The notes under the pieces were generated by a model that was not told where the DNA came from, ran no database searches, and worked only from the letters and a program-made list of their open reading frames with translations. Below are positions 7,123 through 61,662 of a DNA stretch of 64,000 bases, piece by piece. Location of the stretch: the NCBI RefSeq assembly GCF_041381155.1, contig NC_091142.1, positions 39,109,604 through 39,173,603 on the forward strand. The letters are read 5' to 3'. The position numbers and the translations under genes are program-made. Positions within the stretch are counted from its first letter, which is position 1; the number at the start of each line of letters is the position of its first letter. This stretch comes from Argopecten irradians (lineage: Eukaryota > Mollusca > Bivalvia > Pectinida > Pectinidae).

Positions 7123-10100
7123 TTATGGAGTATGAGATCCTACGTTCTGTTGAAGCCATGATAAGTAATTGCTAACACGTGTGTAGGCTCCAGGAGAGTT
7201 AGCGTCTGTAAAATAAGTAGTCATATTGTTACACAAAATTATATATCCTCATATACGTGTTGAAAACTAAAATATTTCATTTATAAATAGCATAGTTGTT
7301 AACACACTAGATCACCTTGGCAACAGTAGTTTGCAATACAAGTAACCATTTTGAAATAGTTCACTGGGATTTGAATTCCTCGAAAGGCTTTAGACCAACC
7401 TGACTAAAATATTTATCATTATTATCACGCCATTTGACAAAGTATATGACAACATTCTATTAGGGGTCACATTCTGGTGACCTTTCGAATTGGTCAATCA
7501 AACTGCTATTTTACAGAATCTTCGAAGTGAATTTCAAGGGACAAAATAGTTTGAAAAAGATGTCTGAATTATTTTCGTTTACATAAGCATCAAAGAGGAC
7601 GACAAAGCTAAATGTATATGGTTACTGGGACGAAAAGTCGTTTTTAATTGATGTAGCTAGGAGTAGAAAAAAACCCATTTGATTTGAAGTACACGTACGT
7701 GGTAGAAAGGTCACCAGAACGTGACCTCTTCTGAGTGATTATATGGATATGTGTTTTATTCAGATTGGCTTTGGACAAAACCGCAGTTGTATCAAGCTTA
7801 TCAGACGATAATGATTGTCTTGAAAATACGCCTGACCTTTGAGACATAATACTGTCTACACTACAGCCATTCAAATGATTAGAATACTTTTTCACTTACA
7901 CATTTAAAGTTGGTTGATGTTTTTATTTGCAAAATCACTTCGTTATAAGTATAGATCGTTATACACATATTACTTACATCTCATAATAACCTTGATGGGG
8001 ATGAAAATTACTACGTAATAACCATGAATTTGTTGTAAGTATGTCCGTTATAAACGTGTTTTACTGTAAATGTTACCGAATGTGAATGGTTTATCTTGAT
8101 TATATAGTATATATAAGTATATAGCTCGGACTAAGTCTTACCTGCACACCCATATCCCCAGGACACGACTCCTTCTAATTGCCACTTTCCGCTTAGTTTA
8201 CAGACGAATGGACCGCCACTGTCACCCTGTAGCAGTCAGACGAACATTGAAAGATACAATGAAATAGAAACGAAACAACAAGGATATGTCCTCACCAAAG
8301 TCACGACTAGTCCGCTAAACCTGTCTATATTATTAGGCTTTTTTATTTATTTTTTTTTTTGCCTAATATATAGTCAGCTCGCGGTACCTCTTAAAAATGT
8401 GAAATCGTAGGCCAGATTTGGCCTACGCTACGTCAGCGGTATATTTCTAATATATCGTCCATGCAATGCCGGGAAAACATACACATACCTATATATTGGG
8501 ATCTTATGTACTCCACTGCCCCCATGTTACATACCATTTATGAAATTAAACAACTCTGCACAATGATATACTTTCGAGACCCTTCTATTTCACACATTTG
8601 TAATGGCCGCCGTATACACATTTAGTAGAGCAAACGGCAGCCAATCAACTTCGCTTCCGGTTTTATTTTTTAAAAAACCACGTGTAGTTGAAAGATAAAC
8701 ACAATTCAACTGTGTATATGCTACATGTATATGCAACGTGAATATCGCGAAAGTGATGCGGTACCAGCAATAGTCGTGTTCAATTTGAATATTTGACAAC
8801 ATGTCGTGTATATCGACCATAATTTCACTATAAAAACTCTAACTGGCCAGCATTTTGTTTATCTTTCAACTACACGTGGTTTTTTAAAAATAAAACCGGA
8901 AGCGAAGTTGATTGGCTGCCGTTTGCTCTACTAAATGTGTATACGGCGGCCATTACAAATGTGTGAAATAGAAGGGTCTCGGAAGTATTTCATTGTGCAG
9001 AGTTGTTTAATTTCATAAATGGGATGTAACATGGGGGCAGTGGAGTACATAAGATCCCAATATATAGGTATGGGTATGTTTTCCCGGCATTGCATGGACG
9101 ATATATTAGAAATATACCGCTGACGTAGCGTAGGCCAAATCTGGCCTACGATTTCACATTTTTAAGAGGTACCGCGAGCTGACTATATATTAGGCAAAAA
9201 AAAAATAAAATAAAAAAGCCTAATAATATAGGCAGGTTTAACGGACTAAGTCACGACGAGATTAAAAAGTACATGGGTGATAGCAAAGAGGTAATATAGT
9301 AATCTATATGGTGTGTCTACTTAGGAAGTGTTGGGAAAATAACTTTCTTTGTCAGCTGTCATCATTTGTATTTTCAGACGGACATCCGGTATAACGTAAA
9401 TAAATCTATAGAAATCCGTGAAAAGTCAATGACAACGTTTTTTCCGTCGTTATCATGACACCGAGGAGGAGAGAAGGAAACCAATGTTTGTTACCTGGCA
9501 GGTATCATGACCACCTGCGTCGTACCCAGCACAGATCATGTTAGCTGTGACGTCTCCATCCAAATAGTCAGTTCCGTTACACTTCTGTAAATTCACTATG
9601 GGGACAGTGACTTGCTTTAAAATACCTTCTCCACCAGTACCTGCAAGTGATGATAGGTGTCAAACAAATGTCAGATGAAGGAAACTTAACAGGTGGAAAA
9701 CAACGAATATTTTGCCGAAAGACGCAACATAAGACATTACTTTACTTTCTTTCCATAGTTGGAAAGCACGCATGCGCATTGTAGTTGGTAGTATACCTTA
9801 GTGACTTCTACACTGTGCTCCAGTGACACAATCTGCTGACGACAGAATCGGCCTTACCCTTTGTTTCTCCATTGACGATATATTGTCAGACTATAACCTT
9901 AGTATCTCTCTATCATGACACAACAGTGTCGAACGTAGTATAATGTTCGACCTAACCCTTGATATCGTCCCATTCTGACACTCTGGTATTTCTCCATCCT
10001 GACACCCTGGTGTACGACCTTACCCTTGGTATCTCCCCATCCTGACACCCTGGTGAACGACCTTACCCTTGGTATCTCCCCATCCTGACGACATGGTGTA

Positions 10101-58700: not shown

Positions 58701-61662
58701 CACATTTGGGGGCAAACAGTCGATGATAATCTACTCACATCTACAATGGGACCATTACAGTAGGCACATTTGGGGGCAAACAGTCGATGATAATCCTCCT
58801 CGCAGTAGGCTCCACCGTCTCGTTCGTAGAAGTTCTTGGTTCCGAGTGGAAGGTTACAGTGTGAACAGATGAAGTGTTCTATGTGCCACACCTTACCAAG
58901 GGCAGTTATCACCTGTGAAAATCAGATTAAAATGGGTGTAATTCTTAGCAACAGACTCTTTCCAATTTAATTCATGGGTGGTCTTTTAAGTTACAACAGT
59001 TTATACAGCATACTATTAAGCACAATTAAATCTGTTTTATTCTCAACAGAATAAAAAATTTAAATAAGTATATTTTGTAATAATATTAAAAATGGAAATA
59101 AATACCAGTAATACCAATGATAGCCATATTCCAAACCTAGGTGACAGTGACCTACATTGGTAAATCCCACCTGGAGTACACTCACCTGTCCTACTACCTG
59201 TTGGTTACATGCTCCACATGTACCCTTGGAGGTCGTACTGACCCCCTGTCTGTTCATATCACTCTCAAGGTCACCAAGCATGCTCTCCAGCTGTCCGCCG
59301 TAGCCGGTAGGCTGGGGGGCAGGGGTAGGAGGGGCTGATCCCTGGGAGGCGTTCCGACTCTTTTGTGGTCGAGCGTAGGAGGGTTCACTGTGTGGTGAGG
59401 GTGAGCGGGCGTGGGGCATGGACATCTGCTGCTGTCGTTGCTGGGCGTTAGATACCTACAAATACAGTACAGTAGTGTTAGATACCTATACCACAATGCA
59501 GGAACATGTTGGAGGAACAGAATAACAGGAAGGAAGTTTACAGGACACATTCAATAGTCTGTGTTTACAGTATACATATTACAAGGAAGTCACTTATTGT
59601 ACATCATATTTGTCTGTCATTTTCATGGAAAATTTAATTTTGTTGAAAATGAGCTTTAGAAACTGTGTTGAATAGCTGATTTGCTAACCTGAATCTTAAC
59701 CAGATTATTTCCCTTTAGTCGGGACACTTAGAAGAGACATATCATTGAAAGTAAGATAACATTACCTAGTAATTTCCTTGATGATTCTAATATTCTTAAG
59801 ACGGGTTGAAGGATATATGCTTGTTAGGTTAAGCTTATAAAATGTCATGTTTGAAGTAATGTACTTTATATTCAATAGAAGCTAATGGTTTTTATTTTAG
59901 ACAGATAAACAAAGGGTTGTTACCTTGAATTCGGACAGTGTGGCCATGAGGTCGTCCAGCTCCCTAGTGGCTGTGGAAGGGGGAGGTAACTGCTGTTGTG
60001 AGACCGCGATGTTGTTTTGGTTGTAGCGTTGTACATTGCTGACTTGGTGTACATTATTCATGGCGTTTGTTTGGGCCGTCTGTTGGTCGGGGGTGTATTC
60101 ATAGTTATCATTATCACCAGGCTCGGGGCTACAGGGTATAACAACAAATTAATGTCATACATAAGGATATAGCTTCATACAGTCTAGTTTTCTAATTTCT
60201 CATACAAATAACTTCCATCTGCATGTATTAAAATTCATTTTACAATTTTCTATATTATGTTAAAGTATGTTAACTTATTCACCCCTGAATACACATTTGA
60301 ACCCTTCCATTTCAGAGGCTGGAATAGTTCATTACAAATTTTTATGGGTGAATGAGTTAAAGATCTTCTCAGTGGCCAATAGAAGGATATGTTCAGATGA
60401 TTTTCTCATTAGCCAAATTAAATGGCAGTTTCGCAAGTTTTGGAAATCTGTTGGAACACATTTTGTCTTGGCATTTACAGTCGATACAATGAAATAGCCA
60501 GAAAATTGTCAATGACATGGTGACTGAAAGTGTATGAGAGACGGTTTCTGATTGGCTGATAAAATCTAATTGTATGGTAATCATTTAGATCTTATGAACA
60601 TGACTACTTATCCAACACCAATATGATGATTAAAATTTCAATCAGATTGGCTTGAAATTGCTAATATTCACAAGTGTTTTATTTATGACAAAGCTGTTAT
60701 TATTTGATATACCTACTCCTTGTAACTATTGACCATATCAGAAAATGCTGTTACATATACTATACCTACCCCCTATAATTGTTGGCCCTCTCAGGCAGTG
60801 CACTTTCTAATTGGTCCAGAAGATTATCCACAGTGTTCCTGTTTTCGTTACGGTTAGGTTTGGGAGCTACAGGAGGAGGGGGTCTAGCCTTGCCTCCTCC
60901 ATTAACCCCTCCTCCTCCATTTACTTCTATCCCTCCTCCACCACCTCCTCCTCCTCCGTTAACAATATGTTGATTCGCTGAAAATAATTGACACAATATT
61001 ACATTTTTGAAAGGACAATTACTTAAAGCTTGCATTTAATTAAGCATTATTCTCAATATCATTCGGGGTTATGAAGTCATAGACAAAAGACGGAAGGACA
61101 TTCTTTATTATCCTTAAATATACCACCATCTTATAGTGGATATCTTTCAGAGAATTTGGCTTGATTTTCTGCTTATTTTGTCATAAACCTTTGTAACCTT
61201 GTAACAGTACTGTTGTCCTTTAAATGTCCTTTATAGACTGGTGTCCTGTCTATAAAGAGGTCAATTATATAATATACTACATAAAATGTAAAACATAATA
61301 AATACAAGAATTGATTCCTGTTTGGGTACAGTTCTGAGCTCAGGTTAATCCAAGGTTCAAGGTCCAAGGCTCCAATTAAATATCCAAACAAAAGCAGTGC
61401 ATCTAATTAATCACAAACCGTTTAACATCCTATAAATACACTTACAGACATTGCGTTTGTCCACTTCAGCCATAAACTGGGCCGAATTGAGGTCCTGTAG
61501 GAGCTGGTCTAGCTCGGACAGGTTATTGGTCAATGTCGACATCTGTTTGGGTGCAGGAGGGGAAGCAGGGGATTTGTCGAAATAAGGGTCTGAACTTCGG
61601 GAGGTTCCGGAGCTTGGTGTTCTATCTCGAATCACAGTCACACTCTGCCCTTCGTACAACGG
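55729..61662 (-). CDS. PXN: Paxillin, amino-terminal exon(s) outside the window
   Basis: Eight phase-consistent exons: 61662-61446, 60977-60770, 60128-59924, 59455-59186, 58912-58739, 57630-57515, 56701-56587 and 55995-55729, giving 523 codons plus stop. LD motifs appear in order: LD2 ([19 protein letters not shown]), LD3 ([14 protein letters not shown]) and LD4 ([15 protein letters not shown]). These bind FAK, vinculin and GIT-type partners. The exon 60977-60770 has a glycine run and a proline-rich [11 protein letters not shown], a likely SH3 ligand. Four LIM zinc domains follow: [32 protein letters not shown] and [11 protein letters not shown], the last ending CFVKLFG. It is a focal-adhesion scaffold. 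LD1 and the start codon are not in the window. The donor after LIM2's first half begins a tandem array (58167-58797). Confidence 0.95.
58167..58797. repeat. 64-bp minisatellite built from a LIM exon end plus its splice donor
   Basis: About ten units. On the gene strand each unit holds the last ~57 bases of the paxillin LIM1/LIM2 exon (gattatcatcgactgtttgc, ccccaaatgtgcctactgta and cccattgtagat) plus its donor gtgagta. The first unit (58797-58733) is the real exon end, [19 protein letters not shown]. The others follow in the intron with few changes and keep the donor. Confidence 0.95.

Follow-up and report, generated by a model that had tools for sequence, protein, structure and literature searches.

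The 64-kb stretch of Argopecten irradians DNA analysed here (the window) contains a trypsin-type protease gene and a paxillin-like LIM gene, both on the minus strand (Table 1). A preliminary description of this locus reported four exon-intron junctions at which tandem copies of the junction were present or tandem repeats directly abutted it, and all four were found where it had placed them. Tandem copies of the junction itself are present at three of these sites, all of them donors, whereas the fourth, an acceptor, merely adjoins a 20-bp array.

Table 1. Junction-associated repeats and neighboring exons in the window.
Feature	Position	Strand	Description
Protease trypsin-type donor-junction array	9984..10998	-	43-bp unit x 23.6 copies
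Protease (trypsin-type) exon	10970..11229	-	PF00089 match C9:39120502-39120822
Next protease exon	9495..9640	-	acceptor before 9640, outside 43-bp array
Protease LDLa-type exon donor, two 38-bp copies	17398..17473	-	adjacent, 33/38 identical
20-bp x 149.8 array	18714..21715	-	directly adjoins acceptor of following protease exon; AG-poor
Paxillin-like LIM gene donor-junction array	58166..58795	-	64-bp unit x 9.8 copies; LIM profile matches

The unit of the trypsin-type array consists of the exon end, GTAAGG, and about 14 nt of intron, and the exonic part of unit 1 is the final ~29 nt of the exon. The donor reads AAGG/GTAAGG (the slash marks the exon boundary; last exon base 10970, donor GT 10969-10968), and joining it to the acceptor of the next exon keeps the trypsin frame, with SGWGDTKG at the exon end. 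In the LIM gene, the first donor (GTAGAT/GTGAGT; last exon base 58739, donor GT 58738-58737) joins an acceptor before 57630, outside the 64-bp array, to give GPIVD / KCVTAIGK. The LDLa-type exon ends in TTCTG/GTAGGT (last exon base 17458, first donor GT 17457-17456); its 38-bp pair was absent from the output of TRF. Exon frames at the window junctions are compatible with use of the first donor. Both large arrays carry splice signals in their units, and the donor GT is intact in 23/23 tiled copies of the 43-bp array and 9/9 of the 64-bp array. Chance does not account for repeats this long and this similar, and unrelated genes yielded repeats of the same type. A strand control confined to the window was indecisive (strong donor in the unit: 3 minus versus 2 plus among 21 arrays).

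To determine how often such arrays recur at one homologous site, we hand-picked 32 trypsin exon-B donors from the listed matches, omitting L057 (one long open frame) and adding L051 and L063 because their arrays had already been seen. TRF arrays with a donor in the unit were present in 7/32 of these genes, or 4/29 without the window gene and the two genes chosen for their arrays; a shuffle test was positive in 6/32, or 3/29 without the selected genes. Unit lengths differ among these junction arrays. At L120 and L133, arrays lie near donors, yet their units contain no donor. Junction copies were also found in acetyl-CoA carboxylase, guanylate cyclase, and myosin genes; at L082, they are 123 bp apart. 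TRF arrays were present in four (L001, L002, L003, and L006) of eight loci taken from a GTAAGT pattern, and exon reading, which covered L006 alone, showed that its 77-bp array lies at an exon of acetyl-CoA carboxylase type. Among eight arrays fetched by motif position, L090 follows an exon with Pfam matches (guanylate cyclase) and L091 and L095 follow open exon-like frames; no exon was found at L089, L092, L094, or L097, and L096 had a weak micro-exon alone. At the window donors and at L045, L051, L063, L006, and L090, the units span the exon-intron boundary inside a gene.

We next compared repeats at junctions with those elsewhere in sampled genes, namely, the best 30 of 55 LIM matches, the best 30 of 153 trypsin matches, 20 of 82 myosin matches, and 15 kinase loci hand-picked from 142 matches with partial domains. 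The strand and pseudo-donor tests excluded the window loci (L022, L023, L032, and L047), L031 (overlapping L029), and L037 (a copy of L036). The preliminary description had anticipated an enrichment of tandem repeats at junctions. As plain repeat coverage, this did not hold in the sampled genes: junctions were covered no more than deeper intron. Of the 89 loci, 60 had usable donors within the zone searched, and copies lay downstream of 3/60 real donors, 4/32 sense pseudo-donors (3/18 at +150 and 1/14 at +300), and 1/23 antisense pseudo-donors (1/12 and 0/11), such that pseudo-donors were copied as often as donors. The L045 and L061 arrays contain three of the four sense matches; the fourth is L106 at +166. 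No downstream junction copies were detected at LIM (0/21) or kinase (0/9) donors. Array make-up and strand gave a different result. Among 40 arrays in 89 loci outside the window, a strong donor occurred in the unit in the gene-sense orientation in 14 cases and in the antisense orientation in 0 (two-sided sign test, 1.2e-4, or 9.8e-4 if just 11 are independent). Trypsin genes supply 11 of the 14. Donor-like 9-mers numbered 164 sense versus 0 antisense inside arrays and 338 versus 290 outside them. Given flat coverage and equally copied pseudo-donors, the donor excess shows in what the arrays are made of and in their strand.

To examine the donor excess across the genome, we counted pairs of generic consensus motifs; the strand and pseudo-donor tests used a generic donor weight matrix. 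A looser pattern, GTAAGT N10 GTAAGT, was rarer genome-wide than its control (277+713 versus 1299+1464). A longer motif with wider spacing was adopted after this failure, and the positive result that follows therefore concerns the 9-base perfect donor. Tandem pairs of the form CAGGTAAGT N12-42 CAGGTAAGT numbered 3594 (1965+1629), compared to 136 (52+84) for the reversed motif. Single sites numbered 9586+9818 and 2817+2592, respectively, corresponding to 18.5% pairs per single site for the perfect donor versus 2.5% for the reversed motif. A GT-to-GA control motif gave 85+460 pairs, with its singles uncounted and many of the listed pairs coming from few arrays. Of the first 100 listed CAGGTAAGT singles (C1:0.15-5.40 Mb), 40 lie inside four arrays whose units are mutually unrelated and 60 lie outside. 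In contrast, tandem pairs of an acceptor-type motif, TTTGCAGG, fell below their control genome-wide (98 versus 362; one motif, singles uncounted). The genome-wide tendency proposed in the preliminary description is thus supported for donors, on both pair counts and strand, but not for acceptors on the one motif counted. These proxy tests point to an excess of donor-spanning arrays over intronic and antisense positions. Alternatively, ordinary minisatellites may arise anywhere in introns and sometimes include a junction, with nothing favoring donors. Flat coverage, equally copied pseudo-donors, the donor-free units at L120 and L133, and the deficit of the looser GTAAGT pairs all fit this explanation. 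However, it conflicts with the strand asymmetry, with the donor-pair excess over two motif controls, and with the recurrence of arrays at the exon-B donor of trypsin genes, and we regard it as rather unlikely.

The 20-bp array meets its exon at CCAG/GTGCGAC, the exon starting at 18712, and contains only 2 AG dinucleotides in 3002 nt, compared to 94.7 expected from base composition. One explanation, which we consider doubtful, is that this array descends from copies of the acceptor and that AG was lost from the upstream copies. The unit resembles the exon start (shuffle p 0.005), and AG is scarce throughout. Moreover, a change to G after A occurred at 0/1024 unit sites versus 8/1280 elsewhere (p 0.01; one polymorphic position excluded), although 8/8 changes to G fall at one unit position and may represent one inherited variant. 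An acceptor-side array in LIM gene L011, with one upstream copy lacking AG, offers a parallel, and alongside the many donors it is the single acceptor-side case observed. Against this reading, 36 of 627 other, unrelated 25-mers from the window reached as high a score, and acceptor-type motif pairs are not in excess genome-wide. The 20-bp array is at best a candidate junction copy.

The preliminary description suggested that a duplicated junction is neutral when the first copy is used, and the sequences of the surplus donors fit this idea. Summed over nine arrays, differences from the unit consensus affect donor positions (86/1458) about as often as other positions (205/3827), although single arrays deviate (donor differences, 0/234 in L092 and 23/180 in L063). 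Only 3 of 11 junction units have a length divisible by 3, and the remaining 8 would alter the reading frame; in both large arrays of the window, translation continued past the first donor runs into a stop within 15 codons. Divergence like that of the rest of the unit, together with frame-shifting lengths in 8/11, suggests that the first donor is probably the one used. We also considered that selection may maintain the arrays as functional modules, which would either offer a choice of donors, as human IFI6 does, or shield the transcript through additional U1 binding sites. Downstream repeat units of IFI6 are indeed reported to act as donors (PMC4526556). In addition, no donor position varied in the 26 units of L092, an array chosen for its perfect motif, and GT is intact in 180/188 tiled copies of ten arrays (diverged or indel-bearing copies were untiled). 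The similar divergence of donor and other positions summed over the nine arrays, the frame-shifting lengths, and the early stops all argue against such modules, which we judge improbable. Still less probable, and very unlikely in our view, is intron gain by tandem duplication (the Rogers model), in which AGGT copies provide a new intron with both splice sites. AG/GT is present in some units, and it has been suggested that such arrays in amphioxus can give rise to new introns (PMC3087553). However, in the two large window arrays the copies do not furnish both splice sites: the intron ends at an acceptor beyond the array, which is joined in frame (exons starting at 9640 and 57630).

We consider it likely that the arrays are donor-seeded minisatellites of the kind termed "mirages," that in this genome the process is frequent and favors donors over acceptors, and that it recurs at a homologous junction in paralogues. 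In the proposed mechanism, a short local duplication would copy a segment that spans the 5' splice site or begins exactly there, and the copies would then multiply into the intron via slippage or unequal exchange. Splicing would still link the donor nearest the exon to the same acceptor, leaving the surplus exon ends and donors as intron sequence that evolves neutrally. The differing unit lengths at the trypsin junction would then reflect separate births in the paralogues. The donor bias may stem from more frequent birth or from better survival of duplications at donors. A stronger version, which we put forward only tentatively, holds that 5' splice sites are birth hotspots at which duplication is promoted, e.g., by transcription-linked damage, pausing, or R-loops. 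In that case, a substantial fraction of the minisatellites in genes would be expanded or decayed donor copies, and ignition would have recurred independently in paralogues.

To our knowledge, little is understood of how minisatellites originate. Were donors to seed them, the position, strand, and unit of an array would become predictable, and an alignment of unit 1 with the exon would test its origin. The arrays also offer numerous natural experiments on how the spliceosome tells nearly identical donors apart, and the donor-acceptor contrast makes a prediction, open to checking, as to which splice sites can bear being duplicated. Donor arrays could further inflate intron length variation, mislead gene prediction through pseudo exon ends, and feed intron gain.

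The preliminary description knew of no account of such arrays as a class, but related systems have been reported. Mirages are known in the amphioxus Adh3, globin BflGb6/BflGb9, TnC, and PGBD5 genes (PMC3087553, PMC3902484), and in interferon-induced human IFI6 (6-16, G1P3), two downstream minisatellite units are reported to be used as donors, yielding three mRNAs (cited in PMC4526556). The Argopecten arrays share with IFI6 minisatellite units that bear splice donors; unlike in IFI6, frames and stops suggest that the later donors are probably not used. Rogers-type intron gain has been described for ATP2A1 and potato RdRp, in which copies of an AGGT segment supply both sites of the new intron (PMC4974935). 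It likewise involves a tandem duplication touching AG/GT, whereas in both Argopecten cases where the acceptor was located, it lies outside the array. A search of the openly licensed literature by title found no genome-wide study of donor-seeded arrays. The arrays resemble the amphioxus mirages, which are reported to be minisatellite-like copies of exon-intron boundaries, many with AG/GT in their units, in several genes of one genome (PMC3087553, PMC3902484). These are backed by RT-PCR and allele data, whereas the Argopecten arrays are known from the sequence of one assembly. In amphioxus, both boundaries are reported and the genes were found singly, whereas in Argopecten irradians donors dominate and show a genome-wide excess over motif controls. 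Regarding the host, a COX1 search gave no match and myosin sequences did not identify the species; an i-type lysozyme exon matched four PDB sequences, the best being 4pj2, 3ab6, and 2dqa, which are clam lysozymes of a family that chordates are not known to possess. Relative to the known class, the scale, the donor bias, and the bivalve host are new.

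Two multi-exon genes lie on the minus strand of the window: a protease of the trypsin type (PF00089 match), whose CUB and LDLa-type exons were assigned by eye, and a LIM gene (PF00412 matches), whose likeness to paxillin is a name given by eye. The preliminary description held that four junctions in these genes are tandemly copied or abut repeats. This observation is confirmed: three donors do carry tandem copies, whereas the acceptor lies only at the edge of an array and shows no clear copy (see table). In the two large donor arrays, the next exons start at 9640 (43-bp unit) and 57630 (64-bp unit), outside the arrays; the frame is kept when the first donor joins the next exon, and read-through beyond that donor runs into a stop codon no more than 15 codons on. 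Unit length is not a multiple of three in 8 of 11 junction units. The simplest account of these sequences would be splicing from the first donor, with the remaining copies left in the intron.

Junction-associated arrays and other features (positions in window numbering, or within loci, L-numbers, cut from the same genome; exon B is the trypsin exon whose donor was compared across paralogues)
Feature	Position	Strand	Description
Protease donor AAGG/GTAAGG		minus	heads array of ~24 copies, 43-bp unit
LIM donor GTAGAT/GTGAGT		minus	heads array of ~10 copies, 64-bp unit
LDLa-type exon donor TTCTG/GTAGGT		minus	two adjoining 38-bp copies, 33/38 bases identical
Acceptor-abutting array	18714-21715	minus	3 kb, 20-bp unit
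Other window arrays	12472-13447, 22452-23677, 62366-63268		units 155-bp, 73-bp, 82/124-bp; strong donor absent from unit
Reverse-transcriptase-like open frames	48072-51660, 25482-26228, 5227-5544		probably LINE-type remnants (by eye)
Open frame	37286-37648	plus	like C-terminal part of theta-type glutathione S-transferase (by eye)
Exon B array	L059:2000-3135		64-bp type; begins past DITLVK, inside coding sequence; a disrupted gene copy or a shifted donor is possible
Acceptor-side array at LIM exon	L011:1403-1520		46-bp x 2.6; AG absent in one upstream copy
Short intronic duplication (kinase)	L106, about 1550-1640		around donor-like GTAAGG, ~166 nt past match end

In place of the scan against annotated splice sites proposed in the preliminary description, we used three proxies in this genome (846 Mb, 1508 contigs): motif pairs, strand, and the junctions themselves. 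Tandem pairs of the perfect 9-base donor motif, CAGGTAAGT followed by CAGGTAAGT at a spacing of 12-42 bases, numbered 3594 across the whole genome versus 136 for the reversed motif. Single sites numbered 19404 and 5409, respectively, such that a tandem partner was present for 18.5% of perfect donor 9-mers versus 2.5% of the reversed control. A GT-to-GA control motif gave 545 pairs, a raw count not expressed per single site, with a few arrays supplying many of the matches listed. Among the first 100 single donor sites in the matches listed, 40 fell inside four arrays with unrelated units and 60 fell outside. Counter to the tendency, GTAAGT N10 GTAAGT was scarcer than its control (990 versus 2763). 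One acceptor-type motif likewise gave fewer raw pairs than its control (98 versus 362, not per single site). The proposed genome-wide tendency toward junction expansion is partly supported: for donors, by pair counts and by strand, but not for acceptors.

For the strand comparison, Tandem Repeats Finder (TRF) was applied to the surroundings of LIM, trypsin, myosin, and kinase exons; with the window loci and two duplicates excluded, this yielded 40 arrays in 89 loci. Units with a strong donor (at least 7 bits under a donor weight matrix) were seen on the gene-sense strand for 14/40 arrays and on the antisense strand for 0/40 (two-sided sign test, 1.2e-4; 9.8e-4 if the independent arrays number 11). 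These 14 arrays comprised 11 from trypsin, 2 from LIM (L011, an acceptor-side array, being one), 1 from kinase, and none from myosin loci. Donor-like 9-mers were 164 sense versus 0 antisense within arrays and 338 versus 290 outside them. The window alone held three minus-strand and two plus-strand strong-donor arrays among 21. Plain tandem-array coverage at junctions was not above that deeper in introns; the link to donors is therefore visible in unit content and strand rather than in coverage.

A TRF-free test detected a significant downstream copy at 3/60 donors from the sampled gene families (exact 95% interval, 1–14%); the sample was drawn from the best 30 of 55 LIM, best 30 of 153 trypsin, and 20 of 82 myosin matches and from 15 kinase matches picked by hand out of 142. 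By family, copies were found at 0/21 LIM, 1/15 myosin (L082, two copies 123 bp apart), 0/9 kinase, and 2/15 trypsin donors. Intronic pseudo-donors had a copy in 4/32 sense cases (three within the L045 and L061 arrays) and 1/23 antisense cases. TRF arrays were present in 4/8 loci cut from the first motif listing. Eight arrays were picked by motif position from the motif match lists (L089-L092 and L094-L097): the exon preceding the L090 array has guanylate-cyclase matches, open frames without a Pfam match precede L091 and L095, L096 is a possible micro-exon, and no exon was found at L089, L092, L094, or L097. Among the eight loci from the first motif listing, L006 was selected because its unit appeared coding; its 77-bp array lies at an exon that gave a carboxyl-transferase match.

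Recurrence at a single homologous junction was examined in 32 trypsin genes at the donor following the conserved GWG motif of exon B. Donor-containing TRF arrays were present in 7/32 genes, or 4/29 without the window gene, L051, and L063, which were included for their already known arrays. Unit lengths were 43 bp (window gene), 37 bp (L045), 31 bp (L051), 22 bp (L063), 28 bp starting at the donor (sister genes L046 and L049), and 33 bp (L118, array start ~58 nt inside the intron). In a shuffle test, the score was reached in 0/400 shuffles for 6/32 genes (3/29 without the preselected genes: L045, L118, and L128); p was ≤0.05 for 12/32 versus 1.6 expected (9/29 without the preselected genes), sister genes among them. 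L115 and L128 resemble decayed copies. Because six unit lengths occur in seven genes, each resembling its own exon end or donor, sequence comparison suggests that these arrays were born separately or are continually renewed, rather than inherited as one.

Surplus donors are neither purged nor specially retained overall. Across nine arrays, differences from the consensus fell at 86/1458 donor positions and 205/3827 other positions; including L092, which was chosen for its perfect motif (the tiling left out diverged or indel copies), the sums were 86/1692 and 255/4685. Individual arrays depart from the overall ratio in both directions. The array at 18714-21715 is AG-poor (2 AG versus 94.7 expected from base composition), with changes to G at 0/1024 unit sites that follow an A versus 8/1280 at other sites (p = 0.01); this is a weak hint of AG purging, since all eight changes share one unit position. 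Acceptor copies seem rare, we propose, because duplicating an acceptor would place a competing AG upstream; duplicating a donor would leave the exon-proximal copy in position. In L011, the single acceptor-side array observed, an upstream copy has no AG. Such a filter explains donor versus acceptor, but not the commonness of donor-made arrays in the sample; to account for that, one would have to postulate that arrays arise preferentially at donors or survive better at these sites.

Minisatellite birth may prefer 5′ splice sites, and this apparent preference is the interesting part. Our literature search found no report of a genome-wide, sense-only donor excess, of its return in several paralogues at the same homologous junction, or of such an excess in a mollusc. 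The host is probably a bivalve: the best PDB matches of an i-type lysozyme exon are entries 4pj2, 3ab6 and 2dqa, which are clam lysozymes. The class itself, initially taken to be undescribed, is not new, because two known systems precede it: passages in PMC3087553 and PMC3902484 describe amphioxus mirages, minisatellites made of tandem copies of exon-intron boundaries, and one in PMC4526556 describes a donor minisatellite in human IFI6 with several donors in use.
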